In this document: one piece after another, positions 1,578-64,000 of the stretch
Layout of the letters: each line of letters starts with the position of its first letter
Numbering within the stretch: the first letter of the stretch is position 1
Source of the DNA: Paulownia fortunei
Lineage: Eukaryota > Streptophyta > Magnoliopsida > Lamiales > Paulowniaceae
Assembly: GCA_019321725.1 (NCBI GenBank)
Contig: CM033121.1
Coordinates: 14,508,001-14,572,000 of the forward strand
DNA: 64,000 nucleotides
Direction of reading: 5' to 3'
The notes under the pieces: model-generated
What the model was told of the DNA's origin: nothing
Databases searched by the model: none
The model's input: only the letters and a program-made list of their open reading frames with translations
Made by a program: the position numbers and the translations under genes

Positions 1578-1579
1578 AT

Positions 1580-6440: not shown

Positions 6441-6485
6441 ACATGTCTCACCTGCTTTAGGGTAAGTGAGAGATTTTTAGGATAG

Positions 6486-35925: not shown

Positions 35926-36740
35926 AAGGTTTATCTCCTGAAATAAAATTATTTATTGAAACAATGTGTAATGGTGAGTTTCTTGATAAAAAACCTAATG
36001 AAGCCTATGAATATCTAGACCATTTGGCAGAAAACTCTCAATCATAGCATAATGTTAATTTTTCTGAAGGTTCTATTAGATCCAATCTTGCTAATAGTAA
36101 TAAAGAAAAATATTACCTTAATAAAAAAGATGAACTAAATGCTAGAATTGCTAGTTTAACAAGAAAAGTTGAGGCCATGGAACTTAAAAAAGTAAAAAAA
36201 ATAAGATCTGTACAAGATGAAGAAGTTTGTAGCATTTGTGAACTTGTGGGACACTCCACAAATGAATGCCCAAATATTCTAACACAAGTAAATATCATGA
36301 ACACACTTAAAAAGTCTTTTCATTCTCCATATTCTGAAATTTACAATCCGTAATGGAGAAAATCATCTCAATTTTAGTTGGCGAGATGAGAACCAGCCCA
36401 ATCGCTATAGTCACAAAAGTCACAAAACTTTCCTTCTTATCCAGCTCCACGTACAAAATCTCTTGAGGAAACTTTATAAGAATTTATGCATGCACAAACA
36501 AACATCAATAACCAGACTTCACAAGCTATCATTGAGGTCAAAAGCATACTTTTAACATTGACAACCTCTTTGCATACTCATAAAAAAGGTAATTTTTCTG
36601 CTCAACCCTAACCTAAACCTTTCACTCAGTGTCATGCTTCTTCTTGAGGTGAAAATTCAATCAAGGAGGCTAATTCAATCACAACTCTTCGAAATGAAAA
36701 AGTTATTAATAAGACTATTCATCCTAAGGAGAATCCAAAG
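35926..36740 (+). pseudogene. Element G1: gypsy gag, 5'-truncated
   Basis: The sequence begins in mid-gag (SPEIKLFIETMCNGEFLDKK) without LTR, primer-binding site or gag N-terminus. It then matches the G2 gag (45915-46730) closely. The zinc knuckle CSICELVGHSTNEC at 36228-36269 is intact as CX2CX4HX4C. Several in-frame stops follow (for example near 36044 and 36350). In a living element this protein would form the capsid and bind the RNA. The left edge is a truncation against LTR copy C1. Confidence 0.82.
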
Positions 36741-37900
36741 TTACTAACAATCCTAAACTTCTCTCTCATACTTATGTAACACCACTAATTTTTCTTAGCA
36801 GGTTAGCAAATTCTAAGAAAAATGAGCAAGAAAAGAAAATCCTTAAGACTTTTCAAAAAGTGGAGATAAACATCCCTCTTCTTGATACGATCAAGCAGGT
36901 ACCTCAATATGCACTAACAAATGGAAGTTGAAGGGGGATGAAAAAGTAAGTGTGGGGGAGAATGTTTTGGCAGTTTTTCAAAGAAAACACCCTCCAAAGT
37001 GTAAGGATCTGGGAACTTTCACCATCCCTTATACCATTGGTAAGACCAAATTTGAAAATTGCATGTTACATTTGGGAGCATCAATTAATGTTATGCCATA
37101 TTCTATTTGTGCTTCTCTAAATCTAAAACCTTTAAAAGAAACTGGTGTTATTATATAATTGGTTGATAGATCTAATGCATATCCAATAGGGGTTGTGGAA
37201 GATGTTCTTGTGTAGATGAATGAATTAGTTTTCCCTGTTGATTTTTAAGTTCTTGAGATGGAGGATGACATATGCCCTAATTCTACACACGTTCTTTTGG
37301 GAAGACCACTCATGAAGACAGTCCAGCTAACATTGATGCTCATGATGGCACTCTTACTATGGAGTTTGATGGCGAGCTTATAAAATAAAATATTTTTGAA
37401 GCCATGACATATCCTACTGACATGAATGTTGTTTATATAGTTGAAATTATTGATCTCAAGTCACAACAAATGCTTTAGTTCACTAGCAATGATGGAGTAG
37501 AGGTTACTTGACAAAAACATCTCCTTATGGAGGATTTGAAGAAAAGAATTTAGATACACAAATTTTGGGGGATATGGAAAATGATGTGACGAGGCTGGAT
37601 TCATTACCAAAATAATTAAGGTATGGTATTTATTATGTTGAATTGTCAATATCTAATGAGAGGCTTCTACCTTCTATGTTGTAGACACCTATAATGGAGA
37701 TTAAACTAATCTCGGACCATCTTAAATATTTCTACTTAGGTGAGAAAAAAATAGTACTAGTTAGCATTGCTAAACACCTCACTCAAGTACAAGCGGACAA
37801 ACTTATTTGGATGCTTCAAAATTATAAGATAGTGATTGAATGGACAATGGCTTTGGCAACATATGTTGATGAGTGGGAGGAAATGCCAGGCTAAGGATAT
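36741..37900 (+). pseudogene. Element G1: protease region from a different gypsy lineage
   Basis: The frame 36928-37158 (LKGDEKVSVGENVLAVFQ, then FENCMLHLGASINVMPYS) is a retroviral-type aspartic protease; the catalytic DLGAS is changed to HLGAS. Further on come LLGRPLMKT and DGTLTMEFDGEL (near 37290-37380), then SDHLKYFYLGEK near 37715. These features differ from G2 and G3, whose protease regions read LLDLGSS or LLDIGAN and SFGNMTLELNVFNF. G1 is therefore a mosaic, with the switch near 36740 and a return to G2-like sequence near 38080. Stops and frameshifts are common. Confidence 0.78.
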
Positions 37901-38300
37901 TAAATTAAGCACTTGTTGGGAGGCGACCCAATAGATAAAAGTGAAGATTGTGAGAGCAATCACAGATTTGCTTTCTCGAACTCTCATTCTCTTTTCTTTT
38001 TATCCATTTAATTTTTGTATTTTTTTTAATTTTGTACTAATCAAAAAATGTGTGTTGACAATATGGTAGGTAGTATTTTTTTTAATTTTATCACGCAAGA
38101 GCACATGGTAGTCACTTTTCAATAAAAAAAATAACTACAAAGATCCTGCAATATGGGTTTAATTGACCCACTCTTTTCAAAGACACTTGAACTTTTTGCA
38201 TAAGTTATGAAAATTATCAAAAATGAGGATCATTCCTGGTTAAGTGGTGGATAACGGCACTCTGTGGCTATTAAAGTCGGACTTATCAGTTTTTCCAAAT
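37901..38300 (+). pseudogene. Element G1: pol-end marker and integrase scrap
   Basis: GGGAGGCGACCCAATAG at 37919 is the kind of sequence that follows pol. At 38085-38220 a short piece matches the H2C2 zinc-finger end of the G2 integrase (49250-49370), and 38230-38290 matches the sequence just after the G2 integrase (50408-50475). Reverse transcriptase, RNase H and nearly all of integrase are missing. Confidence 0.7.
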
Positions 38301-38863
38301 AATAACTTTGGTAGAACTTTAGTAGAAAGAAAAATTCATTTAGTGTATGTGGGAGGCAGTCTGGGTTAATGGGGAGTGTTGCTACTTCTGCTCATGAAGG
38401 AGGAGACAAAATTTTAGAAGTTATCCCAAAATATTTAACAGTACAGAATATCACAGGTATGGCCATCGGAGATGAGCTAAAAGTATCAGATATTCAAGAC
38501 AAAATGCCTAACATGTTAAACAATGTGGATGCATTCATCACTCTACCAGGTGGTTTTGGTACATTGGATGAATTATTCCAAGTTGTCTCTTGGGCACAAC
38601 TCAATATTTACCAGAAACCTGTAGTTATTTTTAATGTTAATGGTTTCTTTGATAGTTTGCTATCTTTTATATCTTATGTTATATAAAAGGGTTTTATTTC
38701 ATTGTCTGCAAGATTAATTCTCATTTTTTCTCCTATACCTGACCATCTGATTGATCAACTTCTAGCATATATGCCAGAATTTGATCCAGCCTTAGCTTGT
38801 GTGGATTGGTCCAATAGGGACAATGGTCGAAAATGCAAAATGAATTTGACTCTTAGCCTGTGA
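38301..38863 (+). pseudogene. Element G1: captured LOG-like cytokinin phosphoribohydrolase, 5'-truncated
   Basis: LOG enzymes release active cytokinin bases from cytokinin riboside 5'-monophosphates in the cytosol or nucleus. The frame starts at NNFGRTLVERKIHLVY, loses one G at the GLMG turn, and from ATG 38369 continues as one frame of 165 codons broken only by a TAA at 38684. It shows the catalytic signature PGGFGTLDE (near 38550), VVSWAQLNIYQKP and a tail ending NLTLSL with a natural TGA at 38861. The first 25-30 residues, with the FCGS motif, and the upstream ORF are deleted. No intron is visible. This is the best preserved LOG copy in its catalytic part. Confidence 0.88.
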
Positions 38864-40251
38864 AATTTATACTTATTTTTTTTGCATAACATGGCAAGTT
38901 TGGGAAGTTTTTAACAAAAGTTTGTGAATTATCAATTTTTTTTAGTCATAGATGTTTTTCAACTTTAATAATTAAAATTAAGCACGAATAATGTGGTTTG
39001 ATGATGATGGGTGTTATTTTGGACTTTGATGTTGTTCTTTGATTAATATGTTTTTGTGATAATTATACTCAAATTTTTTTGCATAAATAGTTATGTTACT
39101 CAGTGTTGAGACAACCACGACAAAATAGGTAGTTCTTATGCCCTTACTTTAATCTTTACTTAGATTTTCGACATGAAGGGGTTGAGTGTTAGGGCTTTTC
39201 CTTTTGGTATGCCAAGGCGAACGACTGATTGAGCACCACTTGAAAAATAATTAAGGCATTAGGCTTTCTAGCACCACAGTCAAATCAGTTTGTTCCCTAT
39301 ATAATGTTCCAAGAGAATATCCCCCATAGTGAGCCACTTTGAGCCTTTCAATAAATAAGCCTTTTTCTATGGTAACTATATCTTCTTACGTAGCTTAAAT
39401 ACACTATTATCCTACCCTTATTCTAAAAATAATTTGGAGCTTAAGTTACATTTTATTGACAAGGTGAACTTGCGAAGGAAATTTGGGTTGGAATAGAAGA
39501 TAAGTGTGGGGGAGTTTCTCTTCTAAAAGAAAATCGCAAAATATTAAAAATATTATGAGTTGTAACTAAAAATGGGATAAAGAGGGGTCCAATTCAATAA
39601 AAATAGGCCCCTGTGTTGAAATTCGTGGAGTATAAGAATTCTTCATTAATAAAACCTATGTCTCTAATTCTATGAAGTTCTTAAAACCTTTGTTGCATCT
39701 CATCCTTTAATTTCTTAGTCACATCACTACTTTTGGCCCCATTACAACCTTTGTTAAAGACCTTTTTATTTTGTGTGGTGCTTTCGGTGTAGTATAGATT
39801 GTACCAAATGAAAAGCCTATGATGTTTAACTTTTCAATTAGAGATTGGGTGACGGTTTTTATGAGGTTCTATAGGAATTCACTTGTTTGAAGCATACCTG
39901 GTTTCATCACTATTGACATTAACTATTCACACACATACTTGACTATACTTATTGTGGAAATGTATTGACTTTTAAATAACTAAGGATTAGATTCAACATT
40001 TGTTTGATTTTATTTCTATATTACATTGTTGCTTCTTGATAACAATGATTGGAAGTTAATTATCATTGGTGTTTATGGGTATCACCACTGCAAACTCTCA
40101 CGAGACTATAATTCATCCTCTATGGGCCATCTAGGGGTTCAAAGGCTTGTTACATATGCTAAATATATTGATGATTTCCTACGAAAGTGGATTAGTTTAG
40201 GTTTGTTTTAAGTTTGCTCGAGGACGAGCAAGGGATAAGTGTGGGGGAATT
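38864..40251 (+). other. Element G1: 3' non-coding region with polypurine tract
   Basis: It is collinear with 51991-53721 of G2. It ends with GTGTGGGGGAATT at about 40240-40251, the polypurine tract that primes plus-strand DNA, directly before the LTR. No coding frame is supported; the 61-codon frame at 40026 is not conserved. Confidence 0.75.
40214..40231. other. Short inverted repeat before the polypurine tract
   Basis: TTGCTCG-AGGA-CGAGCAA can form a perfect 7-bp stem with a 4-base loop. G2 has the decayed form near 53694 (CTTGCTCAAGGACAAG). Confidence 0.7.
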
Positions 40252-41747
40252 TGATCAGTACATATTTTGACATATTTTTGTATCAAATTCTTTAAAATTT
40301 CCTTGCTTTATTCTTTTTAATATTATAGTTTTATTAATATTTTGTGTTAGGAAATCAATGAGCAAAAAAATAATCAAACAGAGCCAAAATGAAATTAAAG
40401 AAGACAACACGTTTCGTGAGCAAGTTGGGAGATAATATTTTATTGGATTAAAAAAACATCATAATTAGAAGAAAAGGGCAATTTGACTCCATCATGTGTA
40501 GATCAAAATATATGCAAGAAATCACTTGGACTTTGCAAGTGATTGTTGGACTTGCATTTAATTCAAAATAACCATGTTTTCAAACTTTGTTTAGGTATAA
40601 CTCTATGTTCAAAATCTCTATGGACCTAAATCTTACTTCATTTAAAAGATAAGAGATAGAAATACAACTTTGTTGTTGCAAGCTTAGCCCAATTTACCCT
40701 TGATTAAAATAAAAAAAATTATCTAAATGTGTGTATTGGAAGGGATCTATCAATGCCGACACATTGGAAAGAATAAAGTTCTCCGTAGTGGTTGGAATTA
40801 GGTGATTCAAGTGGGAAAATGAAGCTAACAGACAAATATACAACTTTCATGAAAAGGCCATATGAATTTAGAGCATATTTGAAGTAAATTTAGAGTATAT
40901 TTGGAGTGAATTTTGATATGCTAATTTAGGCACTCTTCTACTATAAATAGGGGCTCTTAGATGTCATTGAAGACACATAAAAACCCTTAGACATGGAAAA
41001 AAAGTTTTATTGTTGTCTTCTTTAGGCTAAGTTTTCTAGTAGTAATAGAAAAGTATTTTCTAATTTCTCTTCTATTTTTAATCATTATGTCTTTATAAAT
41101 TTCATTTAGTTGAGGAGAAATGATGAACCTCTTGTGGAGGAATAAGAACGAATAAAAGTACATAATGTTCAGGTGTGGTGTATTATTCTTTTAATTTTTG
41201 ATTAAAACCCTCCTCATTTTGTGGTGATTCTTTTTTTATATATCAACAATGACATAATAAATACTTGGATTCATTTAGTTTGATGACACCGACTACTAAC
41301 GTAAAACCTTGATTTGTTGTAGGCAAAGATGTACATAAATAATTGATCCTATAAACAAGTATTGGAGTTAAGAGATAATTTGCAAATAGTAAGACAGTAT
41401 CATGATTACCTTAATGCATGAGATATTTGATAACATCTTCCCATTGTAACTTTCATTGTGTATAGATTCCAATAGTGACATTTAAAAGAAGTAAAAAAAT
41501 AATAAATAATCATTTATTTATCCAAAACTCAAGAGCGAATCTCTAATCATTAGTACTTTTGTATTATTTTGATTTCTTAGTTATAACATAAATTTTTCTT
41601 TATATTCTAAACTACATAAAACCCATCTTTTAAGAAATATAATCCTGAAAACTTCAAACAACTTTCCTGTGGATCGACATCGGACTCCCAAGAAATTTAT
41701 TACTTGACATAACATGCACTTGTATTTGCAACTTTAAAGTTGTAGCA
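40252..41747 (+). repeat. LTR1: 3' LTR of element G1
   Basis: It starts TGATCAGTACATA after the polypurine tract and ends AAAGTTGTAGCA at 41747. It aligns with LTR2 and LTR3 of G2. A TATAAATA box is at 40942-40949. The base after it is the first base of the inverted tail of another element, so no target-site duplication is visible. Confidence 0.85.
40942..40949 (+). promoter_or_regulatory. TATA box of LTR1
   Basis: TATAAATA lies in CTACTATAAATAGGGGC, matching the box of LTR3 (54500-54507) and, inverted, of LTR4 (61307-61314). Confidence 0.55.
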
Positions 41748-43102
41748 CCCCCCAACCAAATTATTACTAATCCCTAGTAATTACAGCGTGTTGAAATATG
41801 ACAAACAAAAAGGACCATGACATAATGATCAGAATTTTAAAGAAACTTGTAAAATAGTATAATAATCAAAATAATCATTTGTCAGAGAGAATAGATGCTA
41901 CCGAGATTTTATTTTATTTTATTTTTATTTATTATTATTATCTTTTTTTATAAAAAAAACTTCCAAAGGATGTTGTGTGTATGTCAACTAAGCCAACCTT
42001 TCATTCCACAGACCAAGATACATATAACTTCAAAATCAATCATGAAAAAGCCTCAACTCCATATCCTCACATGTAAGTGTTTACCATTTGAATTGGTAAG
42101 GTGTTCACTCGTGGAGTTGGAAAATAGTTAAAACACTCAGGCATTACATGATTTAGGATAAGCATTCAAACTAAATTTGAGCATAACAAAGGTAGTTACA
42201 AAATTTGAAACATCTAATCAGTCTTACAAAAATATGCCTCGAAATTTCATTGGTTAACCTGAAAACAAAATGGTGAATTTTTTTTGCTTTAATTTTTTTT
42301 ACAAAACCATGACTCGCATGATGACAAAAGATCAAAAGAAGAATCTATAACTATACTCACATCACTAGCTACAAAGCGAATATTTCATTAGAAATAGATA
42401 ACTACATAGATTTTACCAAATTCATTTCTTCACATGCAAGGTAGACATAATTAGGCATCTCAAATTGCAATGAAACCAATTCAAATGATCAATTAAAGTT
42501 TAGAATACTTGTTTTCTTAAACTCTCCACTCATTCACAAGAGATGTGTGAATATTAAAAAGTAAACACTTTAACATGGTCAAAATTTTCAATTATATGTA
42601 TCACAACCAATCTTTCCACAAGGTTTAGGATGTTCATAAGACTAACTTTTTTTTTTTTTTTAAGTCACTCATTATTTATGCAGATAGTACCTTGGACTCT
42701 AATAAAAAGAGGTCTATAATTATATTTTGACAATGAACAAAGATTCAGTTAAAAACTTTCCAAAAATGCTATGTTGTGCACAAAAAAATCTGGAAGTGTC
42801 TCAAGAGTATCAAAAAGTTACTCTTTACTCTATCACCCTTTCTCATGGTTTCAACTTATCCAAAAGAAAACACACTTGATTTTTAAAAAAAAAAAAAATA
42901 AGAAACTAGAAAAGCATACACTGAACACACAAGATATGACATCAACTATCCCTTCCCCTAACCTAATCGAGACATTGTCCCAATGTCGAAAATAAATAGA
43001 AAAGTAAAGCTTAAAAAGATATCACCTAAAAAGTAACTTATTGGAAAATAAAGCTGAAACAATATAAAACATACACTTTTGTTTAAAACCATTATGAGAA
43101 AT
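41748..43102 (-). other. Element G3: 3' non-coding region and polypurine tract (minus)
   Basis: It is a close parallel of 62134-63511. On the minus strand it runs away from the LOG end and finishes with GGTTGGGGGG at 41748, the polypurine tract. The G3 3' LTR that should follow is absent; the inverted end of LTR1 follows instead. It also aligns loosely with the G2 3' region (GTGATATCTTTT and TCTCGATTAGGTT blocks). No gene is supported. Confidence 0.72.
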
Positions 43103-43508
43103 TTCATAGGCTAAAAGTCAAATTTAGTTTGCTTTTTCAACCACCGACCTTGTCTAACCACTCCACATGAGCCAAAGTTGGATTAGGTTCTTGCACATAT
43201 GCTAGAAGTTGATCGATCAATTGGTCAGGTGTTGGTGCAGAAATGAGTATTCATCTTGCAAACGGTGAAATAAAACCTTTTTTCTACAGTATGATCTACA
43301 AAAGATACCAAACCAACAAAGAACATGTTAACATTAAGAATACCTACAGGTTTTTAGTAAATGTTAAGTTATGCCCAAAAGACAACTTGGAATAACTCCT
43401 CCAGTGTGCCAAAACCACCAGGTAGGGTGATGAAAGTATCTGCATTTTGTAACAAGTTAGGCATTCTGTCCTGCAAGTTTGACACTTTTAGCTCATCTCA
43501 AATGGTTA
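43103..43508 (-). pseudogene. Element G3: LOG-like gene, C-terminal half
   Basis: Minus-strand reading gives DELKVSNLQDRMPN, TFITLPGGFGTLEELFQVV and KPVGILNV, then a frame change after FVDHTVEK. The PGGFGTLEE catalytic signature is intact, but stops interrupt the frame (for example before LNIY). Its N-terminal half lies at 55339-55588; element G2 separates the two. The cut site carries the GGTTA target duplication at 43504-43508. Confidence 0.87.
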
Positions 43509-45176
43509 TGATAAATACATATTTTAACATTTTTTTATATCAAATCCTTTATACTTTTCTTGCTTTATTCTTTTTAATATTATTGTTTATTAATATTTTG
43601 TGTTAAGGAATCAATGAATATAAAAAGATCAAAAGAAACATGTTTCTAGACTTGTGCAGTGTTTGTATTTTGATCATAACTTCATGATCAAAAGCCCTAT
43701 GGACCTGAATCTTGCTTCATTTGAAATCCAAGAGATAAAACTACAACTTTTTTGTTGGAAGCTCAGCCTAATTCAGTCTTGATTATAGCATAAATTTCTT
43801 CCAATTGGTTGCACAAAATGGATCACCAAAATTCGAATCAAAGTTCAGCCCAGTATTGACTTATTTGACCAATTGGATCATATCTCCTAAGCCCAAATTT
43901 ATTTTGGGCTGAAATTTGGATATGTTATATAAAAGAGGTAAATAAACATGTTTTCAAAAGACAAGATGGTGATAAAATATGTTAGAATGGTAAACACATA
44001 GGTTGCACGCTGATGCTTTTGTTAAAGAATGGCTTTTAGACATGATTCGGTAATTAGACCATATCTTTCTCATCCGATAGCCAACTTTGTCAAATGATAT
44101 ATGAAAATATATCATCACCAAAATATCTACAACTTTTGTTCTTTACGTATCATCAAAATCTGAGTACATCTGACCTAAACATGTAATTCAATCCGGTAGG
44201 TGAGAATTTTAAGGACTAGGTGTAACAACTTTTCAACTCTTGCCAACTAGCATACCACTTGATTAACTCCTCCATTATTTGTTTGGACTTTAGCATAATC
44301 CAATTACTTTAAATAGGCCATGTATTAAGCTTGTAAGAGAGGGGGGTTAGTGGGTTTCTTTAGGCTAAGTTTTTTAGTATGTATGTTTCCTAGTAAAGTA
44401 ACTTTTCTAGTAGTAATAGAAATGCATTCTCTAGTTTCTCTTCTATTTTTAGTCTTTCCTACTTTTATTATATCTTTTTAAATATCATTTTGCTGAGAAA
44501 AAATGGTGACCTCTTGATGGAGGAAGAGGAACGGTTATAAGGGTAGAAAATGTTTAAGTATGTTGTATTATTATTTTGAGTTTTAATCTAAACCCTACTT
44601 GTTTTTGTGATGATTCTTGATTTATGTATCTCCAATGGCATAACAAATACTTGGGTTCATTTATCTTATTATACAGTTTTACCCCATCGACTGCTAATGT
44701 AAAACTTTGATTTGTTGTTAACAAAGGTGTACATAAATGCTTGATCTTTTAAATAAGTGTTGGCGTTAAGAGATAATTTATAAATAATAAGATAATATAA
44801 TGATTACCTTATTGCATGAGCTATTTGATAATATCTTTCCATTGGAACCTTCATTATGTATGGATTCCAATTGTGACAATTAAGAGAGATAAAAAGAATA
44901 AATAACCATTTTTCTATCCAAAACTCAAGAGTGGATCCTTAATCCTTAGTACTTTATTACTTTGGTTTTTCTTTAGTTACAGCATATACTTTGGTTTTTC
45001 TTTAGTTACAGCATATATTAATTGTTCATATATTTTGATTCACTTAAATTCCATTTTTTCAATATTTATAAACCTGAATTCTTTAACCAACTTCCCTGTT
45101 GATCGATCTCGGACTCACAATAAATTTATTACTTAATACAACCTATACTTAGGTTTGCAACCTTAAAGTTGTAGTA
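43509..45176 (+). repeat. LTR2: 5' LTR of G2
   Basis: It starts TGATAAATACATA and ends GTTGTAGTA, with the final CA changed to TA. It is preceded by the target duplication and followed after six bases by the primer-binding site. The TATA box seen in the other LTRs is changed here to CTTTAAATAGG near 44300. Confidence 0.88.
44959..45016. repeat. Exact 29-bp tandem duplication in LTR2
   Basis: The unit ACTTTGGTTTTTCTTTAGTT plus ACAGCATAT occurs twice. LTR3 has it once, so the slip came after insertion of G2. Confidence 0.9.
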
Positions 45177-45182
45177 AGTTTT

Positions 45183-45200
45183 TGGTGTCGTTGCTAGGGA
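45183..45200 (+). other. G2 primer-binding site (tRNA-Asp type)
   Basis: TGGTGTCGTTGCTAGGGA resembles the TGGCGCCGTTGCCGGGGA used by Athila-type elements, which pairs with tRNA-Asp; three bases differ, all consistent with C-to-T or G-to-A decay. It supports the Athila/Tat placement. Confidence 0.8.
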
Positions 45201-45380
45201 AGGCAAAGTACGTATTCGGGTTTGTTAATATTTTTTCTTTGTAAATATGGTTTATTTATTTTCTTTATGGATGGATATATGGTTATATGGTATCGTAGTT
45301 ATAATTCTCGGTGTTTAGCTAGAAATAATGTTAAAACTTTGTTTGGAAATTTGTTTGAATCATCTCCACACACTTCAACC

Positions 45381-46740
45381 ATGGCTGAAAATGAAAGTGT
45401 CCAGAATGAGAATGAGAATCAATAGGTGCGTACCATGCATTATTACTTGCAACCTCCTCCAAATTCTTCTTCTTGTTGTTTCATTTTTCCTCTCAATACA
45501 AATAACTTTTGATTCAAGTTAGGTATGATCCCTTTAGTTCCTAATTTCCATGGTTAAGACTCTGAAAACCCTTACTTGCATTTGAAAGAATTTGATGAAA
45601 TATGTGCTACTTTTGATGAACAAACTTGCACAAATGAGATTGTTAAGGTCAAATTATTTCCTTTTTCTTTAAAAGATAAAGCAAAATATTGGCTTAATTA
45701 TTTAAAACCTAGGTCAATTGGCCCTTGGCAAGAAATGCAAACTAAATTTTTGAAAAAATTATTTCCAATTTATAAAACTAATGATTTGAAAAGATAAATT
45801 CAATTTTTTTCTCAAAATTCTAATGAAGCTTTCTTTCAATGTTAGAAAAATTTAAAGATTTGTTGAATTCATCCCACATCATGGTTTTGAAAATAGGGCC
45901 TAGTTAGTTTTTTTTTTATGAAGGTTTAACTCCTGAAATAAAATAATTTGTTGAAACAATGTGTAATTGTGAGTTTCTTGACAAAGAACCTGATGAAGCC
46001 CTTGAATATCTAGATCATTTAGCAGAAAACTCTCAATCATAGCATAGTGTTAATTTTTCTGAAAGTTCTATTAGATTTAATCTTGCTAATAGTAATAAAG
46101 AAAAATATTACCTTAGCCAAGAAGATGATCTAAATGCTAGGTTTGCTAGTTTTACAAGAAAAGTTGAAGCCATGGACCTTAAAAAATTAAAAGAAATCAA
46201 ATTTGTGCAAGAGGGGGAAGTTTGTAGCAATTGTAAACTTTTCGGGCACTCCACCAATGAATATCCAAACATTCCAGTACAAGCAAATTTCATGAACACA
46301 TTAAAAAAATCCTTCCATTCTCCATATTCTGAAACTTATAATCCACAATAGAGAAATCATCCCAATTTTAGTTGGCAAGATGATAACCGTGCCCAAACGC
46401 TGCATTCACAAAAACTACCAAACTTTCATTATTATCCAACTCCACATATAAAATCCCTTGAGGAGACTTTGCAAGCATTTATGCATTAACAAACAAACAT
46501 CAATAATCAGACTTTACAAGCTATCAATGAGATCAAAAGCACACTTTCAACACTGACAGCTTCTTTGTGTACTCATGAAAAAGGTATATTTCCTGCTTAA
46601 CCTTAACCTAATCCTTCTACTCAGTGTCAATTTCTTCTTCAGGTGATAATTTAATCAAGGAGGCTAATTCAGTCACAACTCTTTGGAATGGAAAAGTTAT
46701 TAATAAGACTATCATCCCAAGGAGAAAGTTTCTAATCCAT
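45381..46740 (+). pseudogene. G2 gag, degenerate
   Basis: ATG at 45381 opens MAENESVQNENENQ and a stop follows. The retrotransposon gag domain is clear at 45576-45797 (KLFPFSLKDKAKYWLNYLKP, then a PWQEMQTKFLKKLFP block). Further on come LTPEIK, FLDKEPDEALEYLDHLAENS, a coiled-coil-like RKVEAMDLKKLKEI stretch and a knuckle CSNCKLFGHSTNEYP whose last Cys is Tyr. Several stops and frameshifts make the gene dead. The start is chosen because G3 has the matching ATG (MTRNESD) at 60297. Confidence 0.85.
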
Positions 46741-47715
46741 ATCCAGAAATGAAGAATCGAAATAGTCTTGATGATGAAGGTAAGTGTGAAAATAATGAAA
46801 AAAAAATATTTACCTCTAGCACCCTTTCCTCAAAGATTGCAAACAACTCATAAATTGACCTCAAATGTTGAAATCTTTAAAGTTTTTAAACAAGTCAAAA
46901 TTAATATTCCATTGTTGGATACAATCAAGCAAGTTCCACCTTATGCCAAATTTTTGAAATATTTGTGTACAATCAAAAGAAAACATCATGTACAAAAGAA
47001 GGCATTTTTAACTGAAAGTATTAGTTCACTCATTCAACAATTCACTCCACTTACCACTTAAGTACAAAGATCCAGGTTGTCCAACCATTTCATGTAAACA
47101 CTAGAATAGAGCGTGCTTTGCTTGATATTGGTGCTAATGCTTATACCTTTCTCAGTTTATGAACAGTTAGGTTTAGGAGAACTTAAAATAACTTTTGTTG
47201 TTCTCCAATTGACTGACCGTTTGATTAAAATTCCAAAGGGAGTAGTAGAAGATGTGTTAGTATAAATTGATAAGTTTTACTTTCCAGTTGATTTCATTGT
47301 TTTGGACACAAACACATACATAAATGCCTATCATTTTGGGTCATCCTTTTCTTGCAACTTCAAATATTTTGATCAATTGTAAGAATAATATTTTGAAGTT
47401 ATCATTTGGAAATATGACTTTGGAACTAAATGTGTTTAATTTTTGTAAGCAACCTATAGAAGATGTCGAAGTACAAGAAGTGGATTCAATCGAGAAACTT
47501 GTTCATGAATACTTTACTATTACTAACTCTTCAAATTTTTTGGAGTATTATTTTAAAAATGAAAGTATTTGTAAAAAGGCACATGCTAATACTCTCTCTG
47601 AATTTTTGCAGGTACAAGAAAATCATTTTTGGAAGCCAAGGTTTGAAAAACTTTCATCATCAATAGTAAAATATATTCCATCAAGTATTAAAGCTCCTAT
47701 AGTTGATTTGAAACT
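46741..47715 (+). pseudogene. G2 aspartic protease region
   Basis: The linker FKQVKINIPLLDTIKQVPPYA at 46880-46945 leads to a protease with LLDIGAN in place of LLDLGAN, followed by a frameshift near 47140. Then PIILGHPFLATSNILINCKN (47327) and SFGNMTLELNVFNF follow, as in the Athila/Tat family. The protease would cut the Gag-Pol polyprotein. G3 shows the same domain with LLDLGSS. Confidence 0.83.
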
Positions 47716-53721: not shown

Positions 53722-55338
53722 TGATAAGTGTATATTTTGACATATTTTTATATCAAATTATTTATTCTTTTCTTACTTTATTCTTGTTAATTTTATTATT
53801 TTATTAATGCTTTGTGTTAGGAAATTAATGAATATAAAAAGATCAAAAAAAGAATATTTCCAAACTTGTGCAGTATTTGTATTTTGAGCATAATTTCATG
53901 ATCAAAAGCCCTATGAACCTAAATCTTGCTTCATTTGAAAGTCAAGAGATAGACCTACAACTTTTTTATTGGAAGCTCAGCTAAATTCAATCTTGATTAT
54001 TGCAGAAAGTTCATCCAATGTATTGCACAAAATGGATCATGAAAATTCGGATCAGAGTTCAGCCCAGTATTAACTTATTTGACTAATTAGATCATATCTC
54101 TTAAACCCAAATTTATTTTGGGATAAAATTTGGATATGTTATATATAAGAGGTAAACAAACAAGTTTTTTGAAGATAAGATGGTAAACATATAGGCTACA
54201 TGGTGTTGCTATTGTTAAAGGATGGCTCTTGGACATCATTCGGCAATTGGACCATATCTCCCTCATCCGACAATCAACTTTGACAAAAATATATAAAAAT
54301 ATATCAGCACCAAAAGATCTACAACTTTTGATCTTTAGTCATCATCAAAATCTAGCTGCATCTGACCTAAAAATGCAATTCAATTCGGTAGGTAAAAATT
54401 TTGAGAACTTGGTGTAACAACTTACCAACTCTTGAAAACTAGCATACCACTTGATTAACTCCTCCATTATTTTTTTGGCCTCTAGCATACTCCAAGTACT
54501 ATAAATAGGCCATGTATTAAACTTGTAAGAGATGGGAGGTAGAGGGTTTCTTTAAGCTAAATTTTCTAATATGTATGTTTTCTAGTAATATAAGTTTTCT
54601 AGTAGTAATAGAAATGCATTCTCTAGTTTCTCTTCTATTTTTAGTCTTTCCTACTTTATTATGTCTTTCTAAATTTTATTTTGTTGAGGAAAAAGGGTGA
54701 ACCTCTTGATGGAGGAAGAGGAATGGTTATAAAGATAGAAAATGTTTAAGTATGTTGTATTATTATTTTAAGTTTTGATCTAAACCCTACTTATTTTGTG
54801 ATGATTCTTGATTTATGTATCTCCTATGGCACAACAAATACTTGGGTTCATTTAACTTATTGTACGATTTTACCCCACCAACTGCTAATGTGAAACTTTG
54901 ATTTGTTGTTGACAAAGGTGTGCATAAATGCTTGATCCCATAAATAAGTGTTTACGTTATGAGATAATTTGTAAATCGTAAGACAATATCATGATTACCT
55001 TATTGCATGAACTATTTGATAATATCTTTTCATTGAAACCTTCATTATGTATGGATTCCAATTGTGACAATTAAGAGAGGTAAAAAGAATAAATAACTAT
55101 TTCTCTATCCAAAACTCAAGAGTGGATCCCTAATCCTCAATACTTTTATTACTTATATTTTTCTTTAGTTACAGCATACATTAATTGTTCATATATTTTG
55201 TTTCACATAAATTCCATTTTTTCAAGAATTATAATCCTAAATTCTTTAAGCAACTTCCCTATGGATCACCTCGGACTCACGAAAAATTTATTACTTAATA
55301 CAACATGCACTTGGGTTTGCAACCTTAAAGTTGTAGCA
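53722..55338 (+). repeat. LTR3: 3' LTR of G2
   Basis: It starts TGATAAGTGTATA and ends GTTGTAGCA, followed by the target duplication GGTTA. The TATA box TATAAATA is at 54500-54507. It matches LTR2 with many point changes and lacks its 29-bp duplication. Confidence 0.9.
54500..54507 (+). promoter_or_regulatory. TATA box of LTR3
   Basis: TATAAATA in ACTATAAATAGGCC, at the place matching the boxes of LTR1 and LTR4. Confidence 0.55.
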
Positions 55339-55581
55339 GGTTATGTTGGTGATATTTTGTATTATGAAAGGTTTGGGGATAACTCCTAAGATTTTGAATC
55401 GTAAATAGCAAAAGTAGTAACACTCCCCATTAACCCCAGGCTGCCTCCCTATATACTAAATAAAATTTTCTTGCTTCCAGAGTTCTACCAAGGTTATTGG
55501 TCACCACTATAAAATCACTTTTTTTTCCTGGATTGGCTCCACAAAGCAGACAAATACAGGTGAGCTTATGAGTATAAGAGC

Positions 55582-55588
<7 letters not shown>
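55339..55588 (-). pseudogene. Element G3: LOG-like gene, N-terminal half
   Basis: The minus-strand ATG at 55588 opens MKGSYTHKLTCICLLCGANP, followed by GKKSDFIVVTNNLGRTLEAR and KFYLVY. This is the LOG N-terminus with its CGAxxG motif. The next glycine-rich turn is frameshifted to YREAAWG, where other copies have YGGGSLG. The right frame then reappears as LGVIPKPFIIQNITN, up to the G2 insertion point. The C-terminal half continues at 43508-43103. Confidence 0.88.

Positions 55589-55630
<42 letters not shown>
55589..55630. repeat. (TC)21 microsatellite upstream of G3 LOG
   Basis: Forty-two bases of perfect TC repeat (GA on the coding strand) directly before the LOG ATG of G3. The G2 leader has an A-rich run in this place. 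Confidence 0.95.
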
Positions 55631-55635
<5 letters not shown>

Positions 55636-55754
55636 GTGAAAGTGAGTTGTGGAAAAAATGGAGTGAGTACGATGCTATTTCTTGAGGTGTAAACAATGAA
55701 TACATTTATTGCACCTCTTTTTTTTGTCGGAAATATTGAAAGTAAAGACACAAA

Positions 55755-56010
55755 ATTTGAAAATTAACTATTTATGCGTGAATGTACATGTAGTTGTGAT
55801 TGTGGCTCACATCTTCCTCTGGTTTTACGTCCATTAACAACTTAAACGCCCTCTATGGGTTGAGGATGTGCTTTCCATCTAGTTTTCTTACAAACTAGCA
55901 AATATGATTTTTTAATGTCAGATTTTTGAGACTATAATGCTCATATTCATCCCAGAAATGATTCCCTAAATCAAGTATTACATGTTGTACAAAACTACAA
56001 GGATGTGTCT
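55755..56010 (-). pseudogene. Element G3: C-terminal part of the unknown extra ORF
   Basis: The minus strand reads LDLGNHFWDEYEHYSLKNLT, then FVRKLDGKHILNP. It corresponds to LDLWDHFRNEYELYSLGNLT and FIRKLDRKYILDP of G2. The first half with the Cys motifs was removed together with most of integrase. It lies between integrase and LOG, as in G2. Confidence 0.7.
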
Positions 56011-56039
56011 TAAGAGTCAATAATAAAAACTCACCTAGA

Positions 56040-56470
56040 CATAATCTATAGCGACCAAAATGTAAATAAAACCAAATGATAATAGAAATGATCCCATAAA
56101 ATCATTATCCCAATAGTAAAAAAATCCAATCACTAGGATAGGATGTAAGGGTATCATGTTTCAAGTTAAAATGGATCCTAACTTTTGACAATTTTCATAG
56201 CTTTTGCAAAAATAAGTGTTTTTAAAAAGAGTTATCCAATAACATCCATATTGTAAGATCTTTGCAGCAGTTTACTTTGCAGAAAAATGACCACTACGTG
56301 CTTCTGAATGACAAAATTTAACAATACTACCTAACTCATTATCAGGCATGCATCTTTGAAAGATTTGAATAGGATAATATTTGAATAGGTATGGATTCAT
56401 CCCAATAAAGAAATTTTTGCCTCGGTCAAAAATTTCTTTTATCTTTGGGAATTTCAATACAATGGCATCT
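56040..56470 (-). pseudogene. Element G3: integrase N-terminal fragment
   Basis: The minus-strand frame 56457-56272 ends DNELGSIVKFCHSEARSGHFSAK, the H2C2 finger region. It continues in broken frames to NDFMGSFLLSFGF and VAIDYV near 56050, where the core is cut and joined to the extra ORF. The SDGGKYF part and C-terminus are missing, so G3 is non-autonomous apart from its point mutations. Confidence 0.8.
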
Positions 56471-57960
56471 TTCCTGTCATAAGAAAATTAACAGTATCAG
56501 CAAATTAAGGTAAAATAGAAACATTGAATAGTTGTCCATTAGGGAAAGTGTCATTAATAGATGTGGTTTGAAATGAGTCATCACAAACAAGTCTCAATAA
56601 ATAATCAGTTACCACATTCTCTACTCATTTTTTTATCTCGAACAGTAATGTTGATTCTAAGAGTAAAAAATTCCACCTAATCAGTCCAAATTTGGCATCT
56701 TTTTTTGAAAAAAATATTTTAAAGTTGCATGATCACTGAAAATAACAACTGGTGAGCCAACAAGATAAGATCTAAATTTTTCCAATGCAAATACTATAGC
56801 AAGTAATTCTTTTGCAGTGGTTGAATAATTCATTTGAGCAATATTCAAAGTTTTACTTACATAGTAAATGACATATGCTTTCTTATCTTTTCTTTATCCT
56901 AAGATAGGTCCAACAACATAGTCACTGACATCACACATTATTTCAAAAGATAAAGTCCAATCTTGACGTTGCATGAGTGGAGTAAACGAAAGCATGCTTT
57001 TAAGCTTAACAAAAGTTTTTTCACAATTTTTGGTCCATTCAAAAATAGTGTCTTTTATAGCATGTCCTAAAAATGATCTTATCTCCTTTATAGACTTCAG
57101 TATTGGACATTTTGCAATTAACTCAATTTTAGATTTGTCCACCCCAATACCTTTCAATGAAATGATGTGTCTAAAAACAATACTAATTGTTACCATGAAA
57201 TGACATTTTTCCCAATTGAGTACAAGGTTCTTTTCTTCACACCTGATCAAAACCATTTCTAATTTAGTTAAGTAATCGTCAAATTAATTACCAAAAATAG
57301 AAAAATCATCCATGAAGACTTCAAGAAGATGTTCAACCATGTCGCCAAAATACTAAGCGTGCATCATTGGAATTAACTTGTGCATTACATAATCCAAAAG
57401 GCATCCTTCGACATACAAAAGTTCCAAAAGAACATATAAAAGTTGTTTTCTCTTGATCTTCAAGTACAATTGCAATTTAATTATATCCAAAATATCCATC
57501 TAAGAAATATTAAAATCATGTCTTGCAACTCTTTCTAAGATTTGATCTAGGAAGAGTAGTGAAATTGATCTTTTCAAGTAACTGAGTTGAGTTTCCTATA
57601 GTCAATTTACATTTCCAAGCAGTAACTTTCCTAGTTGGAATTAATTCATCATTCTATTCTTGACTATAGTAACTTTGGATTTTTTGGTACAACTTGTAGG
57701 ACTTACCCATTTGTTGTTAGAAATAGGATAAATGATTTCATTATCCAAGAGTTTACTTACTTCATTTCTTACTACTTATTTCATATTAGAATTTAGCCTT
57801 TGTTGTATCTCTCTAAATGATTTAGTGTTTCCCTCTAGATAGATGTTATGTGTGCAAATTAAAAGGCTAACACCTTTTATGCCAGTAATGGTCCATCCTA
57901 AAGCATTCTTATGCATTTTCAAAGTTTTGATCAACTTACCTTCTTAGGTTATATTAAGTT
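56471..57960 (-). pseudogene. Element G3: reverse transcriptase and RNase H
   Basis: On the minus strand from 57960: reverse transcriptase pieces including the DDFSIF box near 57310, then MVLIRCEEKNLVLNWEKCHF (57256) and EIRSFLGHA, followed directly by IKDTIFEWTKNCEKTF, a deletion of the region normally between them. RNase H follows with DWTLSFEIMCDVSDYVVGPI and a decayed remainder to 56471. Compared with G2, the deletion is in a neighbouring but not identical place. Several stops are present. Confidence 0.82.
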
Positions 57961-58960
57961 TGGAAGAAATTATTACTGAAAAAATCTCATTCTCACCCAA
58001 AAAAGAGTATTTCAAATCAAATGGCTAAAGTTTTAAATTAATCAGAGGAGTGTTAATACTTGATGCAATAGGTTGTACTGTCGATGATGAAAGTTCTTCC
58101 AACGTTGCTTTCAAACAATGCTTTTCTTATACCTACAAAAACTTGGAGAGAACATTAGAGTGCATCTTTTCATAAAATTTCACTTTCAAAACAAGTCTCC
58201 AAAGGATCAGAAGATTAGTGGTAGTAAAATATTCATATACAAGTTCTTCGATTAAATCCACTTCGTGTACTTAGACATCTTGTACAGGTTGCTTACAAAC
58301 ATTAAACATATTTAGTTCCAAAGACATATTTCTTAAAGATAACTTCAAAATACCATTCCTACAATTAATCAAAGCATTTGAAGTTGCAAGAAAATGAGGA
58401 CCCAAAATGATAGGAATATGTGTATGTGTATGTACAATAGGTTATATGTCCAAGACAATGAAATTAACTGGAAAGTAAAACTTACCAATTTATACCAACA
58501 CATCTTCTACTACTCCTTTTGGAACTTTAATCGAATGGTTAGCTAGTTGGAGTACAATAGAAGTTGTTTTAAGTTCACACAAACCTAATTGTTCAAAAAC
58601 TGATAAATGTAAAAGATTTACACTAGAACCAAGATCAAGCAAAACACACTCCATTCTAGTATTTCCTATGATACATGAAATAGTTAGATAACCTGGATCA
58701 TTGTAATTGGGTGGAGTGAATTGTTGAATGATTAAACTAACACTTTCAATTAAAAATGTCTTCTTTTGTACATAATGTTTTCTTTTTATTGTATACAAAT
58801 CTTTCAAAAATTTGGCATAAGATGGAACTTGTTTGATTACATCTAATAATAGAATATTAATCTTGACTTGTTTAAAAAGTTCAAAGATTTCAGAATTTGA
58901 GTTTAATTTCGGAGTTGGTTTCAATATTTGAGGAAAGGGAGTTGGAGGTAAATATTTTTC
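57961..58960 (-). pseudogene. Element G3: aspartic protease region
   Basis: The 144-codon minus-strand frame 58924-58490 reads IFELFKQVKINILLLDVIKQ, then MECVLLDLGSSVNLLHLSVF with the catalytic DLGSS, then SIKVPKGVVEDVLV. Further pieces to 57961 correspond to the SFGNMTLELNVF part of G2. It is the best preserved protease in the window. Confidence 0.85.
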
Positions 58961-60297
58961 TTTCTCATCATTTTCAAACTTACATTCATTAATTTTTCAT
59001 TTGTGAAGGTGGATTAGAATCTTTTTCCTTGGATAAATAGTCTCATCAATAAATTTTCCACTTTGAAAAGTTGTGACCAAATTAGCCTCCTTGAATGATT
59101 TTTCACCTGAAGAAGAAATAAGAAACTGAGTAGAAAGATTAGGTTGAGGTTGAGTAGGAAACTTACCTTTTATATCAGTGCGTAAAGAGACTGTTATTGT
59201 TGTAAGTGTGTTTTTGATCTCATTGATGGCTTGTGAAGTTTGATTATTAATGTATATTTGTCCATTCATAAATGCTTGCAAAGTCTCTTCAAGGGATTTT
59301 GTATGTGGAGCTGGATAAGAAGGAAACTTTGGTGGCTTTTGTGAATGTAATGGTTGGGCATGGTTATCATCTCACCAACTAAAATTGGAATGATTTCTCC
59401 ATTATAGATTGTAGTTTTGGAATATTGATAATGAAAAGGCTTTTTGAATTTGTTCATGATATTTTCTTATACTGGACTATTTAGACATACATTGGCGAAG
59501 TACCCCATAAGTTCACAAATGCTACAATCTTTTTCATCTTGCATAGATCTAATTTCCTTTACTTTTTTATGTTCCATGGCCTCGACTTTTCTAGTTACAC
59601 TAAAAATCCTAGCATTTAGATCATTTTTTTGACTAAGGTAATACTTTCTTTTATTATTATTACCAAGACTAATTTTGATTGAACCTTCGAAAGAATTAAC
59701 ACTATACCATGATTGAGAGTTTTTCACTGAAAGGTCGAAATATTCTAGGGAGTTAAACCTTCATAATAGAAACTAATTATGTGCCATTTTTCAAAACCAT
59801 GATGTAGGCATGAATTCAATAAATCTTTAAATCTTTCTCAACATTAAAAGAAAACTTCATTAGGATTTTGAGAAAACAATTGGATTTGTCTTTTCAAAGC
59901 ATTAATTTTATGAGTTGGAATGAATTTTTTTAAAAATTCAGCTTGCGTTTCTTGCCAAGTTCCAATTGACCTAGGTTTTAAAGAGTTAAGCCAAGTTTTT
60001 GCTTTATCTTTTAAAGAAAAAGGAAATAATTTGAACTTAACTATCTTATTCGTACAAGTTTGATCGTCAATAGTGGCGCATACTTCTTCAAATTCTTTCA
60101 ATGTATGTAAGGTTTTTCAGAGTCTAAACTATAGAAATTAGGAAGTAAATGGATCATACCTGACTTGAATCAGAAGTTATTTTCATAGAGAGCAAAAATG
60201 AAACAAGGAGAAAAATTTCAAGGAGGTTGTAAGGAATAACGCATGGTACGCACCTATGATTCACATTTTCATTCTGGTCGCTTTCATTTCTAGTCAT
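58961..60297 (-). pseudogene. Element G3: gag, degenerate
   Basis: The minus-strand ATG at 60297 (MTRNESD) matches the G2 start. The capsid domain lies at 60101-59844 (KLFPFSLKDKAKTWLNSLKP, then TWQETQAEFLKKFIP). The knuckle region at 59727-59467 reads CSICELMGYFANVC, with the expected His replaced by Tyr. A later frame, 59281-58997 (INEIKNTLTTITVSL), corresponds to the gag C-terminus of G1 and G2. Stops separate these blocks. Confidence 0.85.
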
Positions 60298-60473
60298 GAT
60301 GGATGTGTGTAAAGGTGACTCAAACAAATTTTCAAATAAAATTTTAGAATTATTTCTAACTAAATGATAAGAATTATGACTATGATACTATTTGACCATA
60401 TAACCATAAAGAAAACAAACACATAATATTTACAAAGGAAAAATATTTACAAACCTTAATACTTACCTTACCT

Positions 60474-60491
60474 TCCCCAACAACGGCGTCA
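60474..60491 (-). other. G3 primer-binding site (tRNA-Asp type)
   Basis: The minus strand reads TGACGCCGTTGTTGGGGA just after the LTR end, close to the Athila-type TGGCGCCGTTGCCGGGGA. Confidence 0.78.
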
Positions 60492-60497
60492 TAAATC

Positions 60498-62133
60498 TGC
60501 CATAACTTTAAGGTTGCAAACCCAAATGAAGGTTGTCTCAAATAATAAATTTCTCATGACCGAGGTCAATCCACGGGAAGTTGTTTGAAGTTCTCGAGAT
60601 TATATTTCTTGAGAGTAGGGCTTTATGTGGTTTAGATTATTAAGAAAGATATTTGTGTTATAATTAAGAAATCAAAATAATAAAAGTAATAAGCATTAAG
60701 GATCTGCATCAAGTTTTAGATAGAGAAATAATTATTTATTATTCTTTTTACCTATTTTTATATGTCACAATTTGAATCCATACATAACGAAGGTTTCAAT
60801 GGAAAAATGTTATCATATAGCTCATGTATTAAGGTGATCAAGTTATTGTCTTACTATCTTTAAATTATCTTTTAACGCTAATACTTGTTTATAGGATCAA
60901 GTATTTATTCACATTTTATCCACAACAAATCAAGGTTCCATGTTAGCAGTTCGTATAGTAGAACTAGACATTTAACTAAATGGATCCAAGTATTTGTTAT
61001 GCCATTAGTACTACATAAATCAAAAACAACCACTAAACAAAGAGGGTTTAATCATAAATTATGACGATAATACAACATAATTAAATATTATGTACATTTA
61101 TAACCATTCTTCTTCCTCCATCAAGAGGTTCACCCTTTCTCCTCAAGCAAATGAAACTTAGAAGGACATAATAAAAGTAGAGAAGTCTAAATATAGAAGT
61201 GAAACTAGAGAAGATATTTTTATTACTACAAGAAAACTTAATGCAAAGGAAAACAAGACTAAAACTTTGTTCTAACTCTCCCCTTTTACAAACTTGATAC
61301 AAGGCCTATTTATAGTGATTGGAGAATGCTAGAGGCCATAAATATAATGGAAGAATTTAACAATCAAGTGGTATGCTTGTTGATCAAGAGTTGATAAGTT
61401 GTTATACAAAAAATTGGAACCCTCCTTTGATAATTTTTATCTACCTGATTGAATTGAATTTCCAGGCTGAATACAACTAGATTCTAATTATTGGTAAAAA
61501 TCAAAGTTGTAGATCTTTATTTGCTGATAGATTTTCATGTATCATTTGTCAAATTTGGCCGCAAGATGAAGGAGATATGATCAAATTATGTGATTATATT
61601 CCAGACCCATCATACAACATCAGCAGTGCATTGCAATATGTTTCTTAACCATTTTAACATATTTTTACACCATTGTCTCACAAAACTTGTTTATCTAACT
61701 CTTGTGTGTAACATATCCAAATCTTAGCCCAAAAGAAATTTTAATTTAAGAGGTATGACTCAATTGGTAAAATAAGTTAGGACTAGGCTCAACTATGATT
61801 CGAATTTTTGGTTATCCATTTTGTACAGCCATTTGTAATCCAAATTTTGATCCTTAAATATTTAGTATAGGTTCCAAGGTCTACATAAACTTGTACATGA
61901 ATGATTTATCAATCTAAAGCCTCAAGAATTAACCCAAGCCATTTTGGAATTATAAGTTTTGCTAGTTTCTCTAAACCTACACTAAAAAAACGCTTCTTAA
62001 TTTGATTTTATGTTGATTTCCCATTTCATTTCTAAAATACAAAAAATGCTTTAATTGAGAGTTCTAATGACAGTTTCAAAGTGAAAATAATTATATAAAT
62101 CCTAATTAATTGTATATTTTTAAACGTTCATCA
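60498..62133 (-). repeat. LTR4: 5' LTR of G3, also 3' LTR of G4
   Basis: The minus strand starts TGATGAACG at 62133 after a polypurine tract (GTTAGGGGGTG) and ends TTATGGCA at 60498 before the G3 primer-binding site. The TATA box is at 61307-61314. It is alignable with LTR1-LTR3 but clearly diverged, a second subfamily. Because a tail precedes it and gag follows, it serves two elements. Confidence 0.83.
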
Positions 62134-63511
62134 CACCCCCTAACTAGCTTATTACTAGTACCTAGTAATTACAACATAATAAAATTTGACAAGCAAAAAA
62201 GAACATATCATGATGATCAGAATTTAAAAGAAACCAGTAAAATAGTATAACAATCAAAGCAATCATTTATTAGAGATCACAGATGCTATCGAGATTTTAT
62301 TTTATTTATTATTTTTATTTTATGTATTATTATTATAAATACCATTTTTTTTCAAAACTTCTAACGGATATTGTGTGTATGTGCACTAAGCCAACCTTTC
62401 ATTCCACAGACCAAGATATATATAATTTCAAAATCAATCATGGAAAAGTCTCAACTCTATATCCTCACAGGTAAGTATTTACCATTTAAGTTGGTAAAGT
62501 ATTCACTCATGGATTTGAAAAACAGTTAAAACACTCAGAAAAATGGCTTACAAGATTTAGAACAACCATTCAAACTAAAATTTAGCATAAAATAGGCAGT
62601 TACAATATTTGAAACACCTAATCTGTCTTACCACAATATGCCTCAAAATTTCATTGGTTAACCTGAAAGCGAAATGGTGAATTTTTTTTCTTTCTTTTTT
62701 GTCTTTTTCTTTGATTTATTTTTTTTATAACAACATGACTTGCAAGATAACAAAAGATCAACATAAGGATCTATAATTATACTCACATCACTAGCTACAA
62801 AGTAAAATATTTCTATAGAAATAGACAACCACATTGATTTAACCCAATTTATTTCTCCACATGCAAGGTAGACATAATTAAGCATCTCAAATTACAACGA
62901 AACCAATTCAAATGACCAATTAAAAGTTTAGAATGTTTTTTTCTCAAACTCTCTACTTATTCACAAAAAATGTGTGAATATTAAAAAGTAAACACTTTAA
63001 CATGGTCAAAATTTTCAGTTATATGTATCGCAACCAATCTTTCCACAAGGCTGAAGATGTGCACAAAACTGACTTTTTTTTTTCAAGTCGCTTATTATTA
63101 ATCAAGATAGTACCCTTGGACTCAAACAAAAAGAGGACTGCAATTCTATTTTGGCAATTCTAAAAACTTTAATTAAAAACTTCATAAACATGCCATGTTA
63201 TGCACAAAAAAAGTTTAGGGTGCGTCTCATAAGTATCAAAAAATAACTCTTTACGATGCCACCCTTTATCATGGTTTCAACTTACCCAAAAGAAAATACA
63301 CTTGATTTTTTTTAAAAAAAAAAGAAACTAGAAAAGCACACATTAAACACACAAGACAAGATATTAACTATCATTTTCCCAACCTAATCGAGACATTATC
63401 CCTAATATCGAAAATAGAGATTAGAAGATATCACCCGAAATATGACTTATTGGAAAATAAAGCTGAAACAACACAAAACACATACTTTTGGTTAAAACCA
63501 TTAATGAGAAA
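62134..63511 (-). other. Element G4: 3' non-coding region
   Basis: It is closely similar to 41748-43102 over its whole length, for example ACTAAGCCAACCTTTCATTC at 62384 and 41978 on the plus strand. It ends at the polypurine tract before LTR4. No gene is supported. Confidence 0.8.
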
Positions 63512-64000
63512 TTTCACAAATTGAGAGTCAAATTCAGTTTGAGATTTTGACCACTGTCCTTGTCGGACCACTCCACATAAGCCAAAGTTAGATCAGGCTC
63601 TTACACATATGCTGGAAGTTGATCAATCAGTCGGTTAAGTGTTAGTGGAGAAATGAGTATTTATCTTGCAAAAGGTGAAATAAAACCTTTTTCCACAATA
63701 TTATCTATAAAATATAACAAACCGTCAAAGAAACTATTAACATTAACAATACCTACAAGTTTTTGGTAAATGTTGAGTTATACCCAAGAGACAACTTGGA
63801 ATAACTCCTCCACTGTGCCAAAACCACCAGGTAGGGTGATGCAAGCATCCGTATTTTTTACATGTTAGTTATTCTGTCCTACATGTTTGACACTTTAAGA
63901 TTATCCCCAATGGTTCTGCCTGTGATATTCTATATTGTTAAAGGTTTTGGGATAACTCCTAAAACTTTAACTCCTCCTAAATAAGTTGAAGTATCAAAAT
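63512..64000 (-). pseudogene. Element G4: captured LOG-like gene, runs off the window
   Basis: The minus strand shows GGVKVLGVIPKPLTI, then CITLPGGFGTVEELFQVVSW, KLVGIVNVNSFFDGL and VEKGFISPFAR. The catalytic PGGFGTVEE is intact. Stops are frequent (for example before NITG and after AYV). The N-terminal third and the rest of G4 lie beyond 64000. The distance from LOG to LTR4 is the same as in G3, so G3 and G4 belong to one subfamily. Confidence 0.87.

Follow-up and report, generated by a model that had tools for sequence, protein, structure and literature searches.

In the final 28 kb of the window, our name for the whole 64,000-nucleotide stretch of Paulownia fortunei contig CM033121.1 analysed here, four related Ty3/gypsy retrotransposon copies (labelled E1 to E4) each hold one gene derived from the cytokinin-activating gene LOG, all in sense orientation. 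The complete element, E2, has a further open reading frame (ORF) between its integrase and the LOG gene, which resembles the zinc-finger nucleic acid-binding proteins (NABPs) of carlaviruses. We read the pair as a two-gene accessory module rather than as passive cargo, this being the interpretation that best fits the data. Two sense genes, one NABP-like and one intron-free and LOG-derived, lie between integrase and the 3' long terminal repeat (LTR) and probably aid the element by altering the host cell.

LOG copies and the second ORF in the window

The positions and orientation of the four LOG copies are those given in a preliminary description of the window, which recognised the LOG cargo and missed the second, virus-type ORF. 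The accessory genes of E1, E2 and E4 are as follows; the E3 LOG gene is divided between two segments given further below.

50537..51091, plus strand: second ORF of E2, for a zinc-finger protein resembling carlavirus-type NABPs, interrupted by an in-frame stop (ten relatives, Pfam, tblastn)
51337..51990, plus strand: E2 LOG-derived gene, intron-free, 218 codons, broken (sequence, PF03641, ATG-to-stop span)
38301..38863, plus strand: E1 LOG-derived gene, 5' part missing (sequence, PF03641, tblastn)
63512..64000, minus strand: LOG-derived gene of E4, truncated where the window ends (sequence, tblastn)

The open piece 38315-38683 of the E1 LOG matched PF03641 (E=4.3e-27), and its core matched Arabidopsis LOG3 (2a33) at E=8.3e-30. 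Window pieces reached 95.3 and 55.4 bits against PF03641 and the intact relative P0001 129.3, with the cut-off at 27. From ATG to stop, the E2 LOG has no gap of intron size, and host LOG genes contain introns, so these element-borne genes (hereafter, retro-LOGs) were likely captured from a spliced host LOG mRNA.

Among 426 candidates, ten proteins of 95-182 aa were related to the E2 second ORF at E<=0.01; those named are a partial one from Paulownia (P0121) and one from Hibiscus cannabinus. Above the Pfam cut-off, Viral_NABP was found in five of the ten and Carla_C4 in seven, P0121 having neither, and the E2 piece itself fell below it (18.7 vs 20.9). The four cysteines of a C-x2-C-x4-C-x3-C pattern were invariant in all six full-length relatives. 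The structure model of the NABP-like protein was too poor to use (mean pLDDT 46). Since E3 retains the tail of this ORF (tblastn), both of the subfamilies described below had it.

Structure and nesting of the elements

E2 interrupts the E3 LOG gene: 55588-55339 and 43508-43103, listed as one copy in the preliminary description, are a single LOG cut in two by E2, which is flanked on either side by GGTTA. A 5-bp match of this kind has a chance of about 0.002. The elements and their parts are as follows.

43509..55338, plus strand: E2, complete gypsy element, 11.8 kb, inside the E3 LOG gene (LTR pair, GGTTA both sides)
43504..43508, no strand: left target site duplication of E2, GGTTA (5 bp; sequence)
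55339..55343, no strand: right target site duplication of E2, GGTTA (sequence)
43509..45176, plus strand: E2 5' LTR, 88.3% identical to the 3' LTR over 1609 aligned sites (Kimura two-parameter distance 0.129), with boundaries that differ by a few bases
45558..50327, plus strand: broken E2 remnants of gag, protease, reverse transcriptase (RT), RNase H and integrase (Pfam matches)
53722..55338, plus strand: E2 3' LTR, preceded by a run resembling a polypurine tract (PPT; LTR alignment)
35920..41747, plus strand: E1, 5'-truncated, pol largely deleted, 3' LTR at 40252-41747 (repeat/LTR comparison)
55344..60497, minus strand: E3 portion with gag-pol, the tail of the NABP-like ORF (56026-55859) and the N-terminal part of LOG (55588-55344) (sequence comparison, tblastn, Pfam)
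41748..43508, minus strand: E3 portion with the C-terminal part of LOG (43508-43103) and the 3' region as far as a PPT-like run (sequence comparison)
60498..62133, minus strand: LTR common to E3 (as 5' LTR) and E4 (as 3' LTR) (LTR comparison)

Between its LTRs, E2 has the Ty3/gypsy order of gag, RT/RNase H and integrase. Retrotrans_gag and RT_RNaseH were above the Pfam cut-off in its open pieces, and RVT_1, Integrase_H2C2 and rve below it. E2 also contains PPT-like and primer-binding-site-like sequences. The placement of LOG between integrase and PPT/3' LTR, claimed earlier for all four copies, is complete in E2, where the full order RNase H, integrase, LOG, PPT, 3' LTR is seen (with the integrase matches below cut-off). 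It is preserved as remnants in E3, where RNase H and an integrase-region remnant precede LOG, and in E1, where the integrase region is reduced to 178 bp; E4, on the minus strand, continues past the window end, and its integrase would lie outside.

The single LTR that serves E3 and E4 gives a pattern as after unequal LTR-LTR recombination. At 41747/41748 the end of the E1 3' LTR abuts the start of the E3 PPT-like run head-on, so that an opposite-sense LTR occupies the place of the missing E3 3' LTR. A long GA repeat (55588-55640) stands immediately before the E3 LOG start and is absent from E2. The four elements may be of the Athila lineage, a guess from resemblance only; Athila is defined by RT, RNase H and integrase phylogeny and lacks the additional archaeal-type RNase H of Tat.

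Intact relatives in other plants

With the E2 LOG as query, 552 proteins were found at E<=1e-3 among 678 candidates, and the counts below rest on 120 listed relatives, drawn from a database that favours intact gene models. The best named relative among the matches listed was from Paulownia fortunei (83%), followed by Xanthoceras, Rehmannia, Reevesia, Orobanche and Populus. Intact relatives are listed for Paulownia, Rehmannia, Orobanche, Reevesia and poplar, in several eudicot orders; between plant orders, full-length ones share about 50-60% identity. Dozens of members fall in each of several 90% clusters, and 244 in one, numbers that may include database duplicates, and copy number suggests that these relatives reside in retroelements. 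For the Xanthoceras gene model P0013 the link is direct: two LOG pieces are joined to gag-pro sequence that shares 52-53% identity with the gag-pro of E2 and E3 (E=3e-11 and 8e-10). Scans of viral contigs with P0001, the retro-LOG alignment and the NABP alignment gave no relatives.

For comparison we used 120 host LOGs listed among 7,997 matches to a LOG3/LOG8 profile. In a tree of 34 of the relatives, two window copies and 26 of these host LOGs (a sample drawn from that host group), a 100/100 branch separated the relatives and window copies from the host LOGs, and the E2 LOG paired with the Paulownia relative (100/83). The separation of retro-LOGs from host genes, for which the preliminary description had called for a tree, is thus clear in this sample.

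A changed prenyl pocket and an LxLxL tail

Residue roles were transferred from the bacterial CgLOG (parts of PMC4979012), and the residues were counted in 118 of the 120 relatives, leaving out two chimeric gene models. The catalytic Arg and Glu were both kept in 105/118 relatives and in all 120 host LOGs, and the phosphate-site Thr in 116/118; the strict pattern PGGxGTxEE was present in 96 of the 120. The five-residue prenyl pocket (Met, His, Lys, Glu, Trp), identical in 120/120 host LOGs, was whole in only two relatives, P0102 and P0110, which are the most basal in the tree. The pocket Lys was changed to Met or Ile in 110/118, and the Glu to Gln or His also in 110/118. Because basal Xanthoceras-type LOGs retain the host-type pocket, the change would have followed capture. 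The AlphaFold model of P0001 had a LOG fold (mean pLDDT 83.3), with 2a33 as the nearest structure.

The preliminary description pictured a plain mobile gene for cytokinin activation. With the pocket altered in 116/118 relatives, the retro-LOG is a LOG homologue and at most a candidate cytokinin-activating enzyme. In CgLOG, according to the sections of PMC4979012 consulted, substrate choice is tied to pocket residues. According to passages of PMC11593424, even closely related plant LOGs may yield different products, and activity is therefore not readable from sequence.

An LxLxL motif was found within the last 15 residues of 81/120 relatives and of none of the 120 host LOGs. It was present in 12/12 Paulownia-like proteins, 4/4 from Rehmannia, 1/1 from Populus, 43/52 from Reevesia and 20/23 from other sources, and in 0/1 from Xanthoceras. 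In the window, E1, E2 and E4 have it and E3 has one Leu changed. The tail of the P0001 model had a pLDDT under 50. We take the motif to be EAR-like, going by the EAR consensus; EAR repressors bind TOPLESS.

Selection on LOG before insertion

By LOG, by the 3' region and by the gag stretch common to three copies, E1 groups with E2; by LOG and the 3' region, E3 groups with E4. Nei-Gojobori counts were made on the internal branch between these two subfamilies, with 2000 bootstrap replicates. The LOG gave dS 0.202 and dN 0.031, a ratio of 0.16, with a dS-dN interval of 0.066 to 0.289; when the count was restricted to the 141 codons that no copy interrupts, the ratio was 0.26 (interval 0.018 to 0.244). 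In both off-frame readings the interval included zero. Repeated on E2, E3 and E4, the LOG had dS 0.249 and dN 0.020 (interval 0.090 to 0.402), and zero lay within the interval for three frames of the alignable 3' flank and the two other LOG frames. These counts, a check that the preliminary description had asked for, show apparent purifying selection on LOG between the subfamilies, before insertion. Within subfamilies, LOG divergence (16.5 and 17.8%) was similar to that of the 3' region (16.0 and 15.0%), as expected if each copy decayed near-neutrally once inserted. The earlier idea that a captured LOG multiplied with a gypsy family is upheld in that LOG is the intron-free cargo of a replicating family and was constrained before insertion; the capture itself is likely.

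LTR identities do not follow this grouping (E1-E2 64.3%, E2-E3/E4 72.1%, E1-E3/E4 64.5%), and the four elements may therefore be mosaics. When the 3' regions 38864-40250 and 51991-53708 are compared with 43102-41760 and 63511-62150, alignment is nearly lost beyond about 360 bp past LOG, with about 81% likeness within each subfamily, which probably reflects a single exchange of the 3' end. A claim of strong LOG conservation relative to the whole 3' region (45-57%) was withdrawn, since those regions hardly align between subfamilies beyond that distance.

Weighing the explanations

That the four copies, which stand within 26 kb, are a local segmental duplication of a host LOG locus beside retroelements is extremely improbable, and we reject it. 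The LOG genes of E1, E2 and E3 follow pol remnants, and all four precede a run resembling a PPT; E2, with a target duplication of its own, interrupts the E3 LOG; introns are absent; relatives occur in other plants, some in many copies; and gag-pro and LOG are fused in the Xanthoceras model. Nesting, target duplication, element structure and the anatomy of the window all contradict such an origin, which the preliminary description had named as the finding that would overturn its own proposal. Harder to dismiss, although we think it unlikely, is that a single LOG transduction multiplied by hitch-hiking and was useless to the element. Transduction of host genes by plant LTR elements is documented (in the relevant part of PMC7264820), all four window copies are broken, and LOG divergence overall equals that of the near flank. 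The split between silent and replacement changes on the internal branch argues against it, as do full-length relatives about 50-60% identical across orders with the catalytic pair in 105/118, a point weakened by the database's preference for intact models. Slightly less probable again is that the retro-LOG departed from cytokinin activation and acts on another nucleotide substrate, or mainly as a binding or corepressor-recruiting protein. The pocket, whole in 2/118 with Lys and Glu each replaced in 110/118, the tail in 81/120 and the link of CgLOG pocket residues to substrate choice (in the same sections of PMC4979012) favour this; the catalytic pair and the phosphate-site Thr (116/118) are kept, and the residue roles are borrowed from a bacterial LOG.

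Several observations also count against a module that serves the element. All four window LOG copies are dead through stops and/or frameshifts, the pairing of an NABP-like ORF with LOG is seen in this window only, and relatives from Orobanche nearly all lack the LxLxL tail (1/25 with it). The altered pocket may mean a lost or different enzyme activity. Between subfamilies, LOG (22.0-22.4%) is overall no better conserved than the alignable 3' flank (21.8-24.7%, about 335 sites), which makes the silent/replacement split the sole selection signal. Codon-wise reading of the whole 3' region yielded ratios of 0.65-0.76 and a dS-dN interval above zero in two of three frames, and the method is therefore biased.

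We still favour the two-gene accessory module. A fuller version, to which we give some credence while doubting it, is a eudicot-wide retrotransposon lineage with a host-control module, namely a LOG with a rebuilt pocket and a corepressor-docking tail, and a zinc-finger protein of a kind that plant RNA viruses also have, which jointly reprogram division and silencing for the element. In the reading that we favour, a spliced host LOG mRNA would have been captured, with pocket change and tail gain following. Upon element transcription, the enzyme would split cytokinin-like nucleoside monophosphates, driving cells towards division, and its tail would dock a TOPLESS-type corepressor. The zinc-finger protein, as a binder of nucleic acid, would weaken silencing or else switch genes of the host. 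Each copy would decay once inserted.

Relation to known systems

LOG cargo in gypsy elements is not new, although the preliminary description knew of none. In its section on such domains, PMC9289625 reports YgdH (LOG) in gypsy consensuses of Citrus sinensis and C. clementina, and in Populus trichocarpa without a copy filter, and cites Steinbauerova et al. 2011. Those elements share with ours a LOG-type domain within plant gypsy elements; that section is silent on any changed pocket, LxLxL tail or NABP-like ORF, on tests for selection and on occurrence in Lamiales or Malvales. New here are the purifying selection on LOG, the intact relatives across plants, the changed pocket, the LxLxL tail and the NABP-like second ORF. 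Our literature search, whose result lists were covered in part, recognised no report of LOG-carrying retroelements beyond that paper. The 2011 study reportedly described two Athila-like elements resembling LOGL4.

A comparable case is the AlkB m6A-demethylase of Phalaenopsis Ty3/gypsy elements, where a plant gypsy lineage has likewise acquired and retained an enzyme of host type; it is an RNA demethylase, not a nucleotide phosphoribohydrolase, and was found in only two Phalaenopsis species in that screen (as described in a passage of PMC9289625). Carlavirus cysteine-rich proteins, e.g., chrysanthemum virus B p12, share with the second ORF the Carla_C4/Viral_NABP match and a basic stretch followed by a Cys finger, whereas the window ORF lies in an LTR retrotransposon upstream of LOG and is known from sequence alone (for the viral proteins, parts of PMC10141686). 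A literature search on a link between retrotransposons and carlavirus-type proteins recognised no such paper among those listed; PMC6338049, in the portion consulted, deals with helicases and methylases. Host LOG1, LOG3 and LOG8 have the same fold, length, catalytic Arg/Glu and PGGxGTxxE motif, whereas retro-LOGs form a separate 100/100 group with an altered prenyl pocket and an LxLxL tail, and the E2 copy has no introns.

For most accessory genes carried by plant retrotransposons, no function is, to our knowledge, recognisable. In the present case one such gene encodes an enzyme of hormone type that differs specifically at known substrate residues, and the gene beside it is of a plant-virus type. 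Virus-like host manipulation by plant retrotransposons thus becomes a directly testable question, with one enzyme assay and one binding assay. Many Reevesia or Orobanche proteins annotated as LOG are suggested to be members of this probably mobile group.

Other repeats in the window

Direct repeats at 1-1549 and 6710-8233 (83.5%) surround copia-pol-like pieces in 1-8233, probably another LTR element. Between 20687 and 35633 lies a diverged repeat family of about 0.1-1.3 kb units, in both orientations and 67-84% alike.
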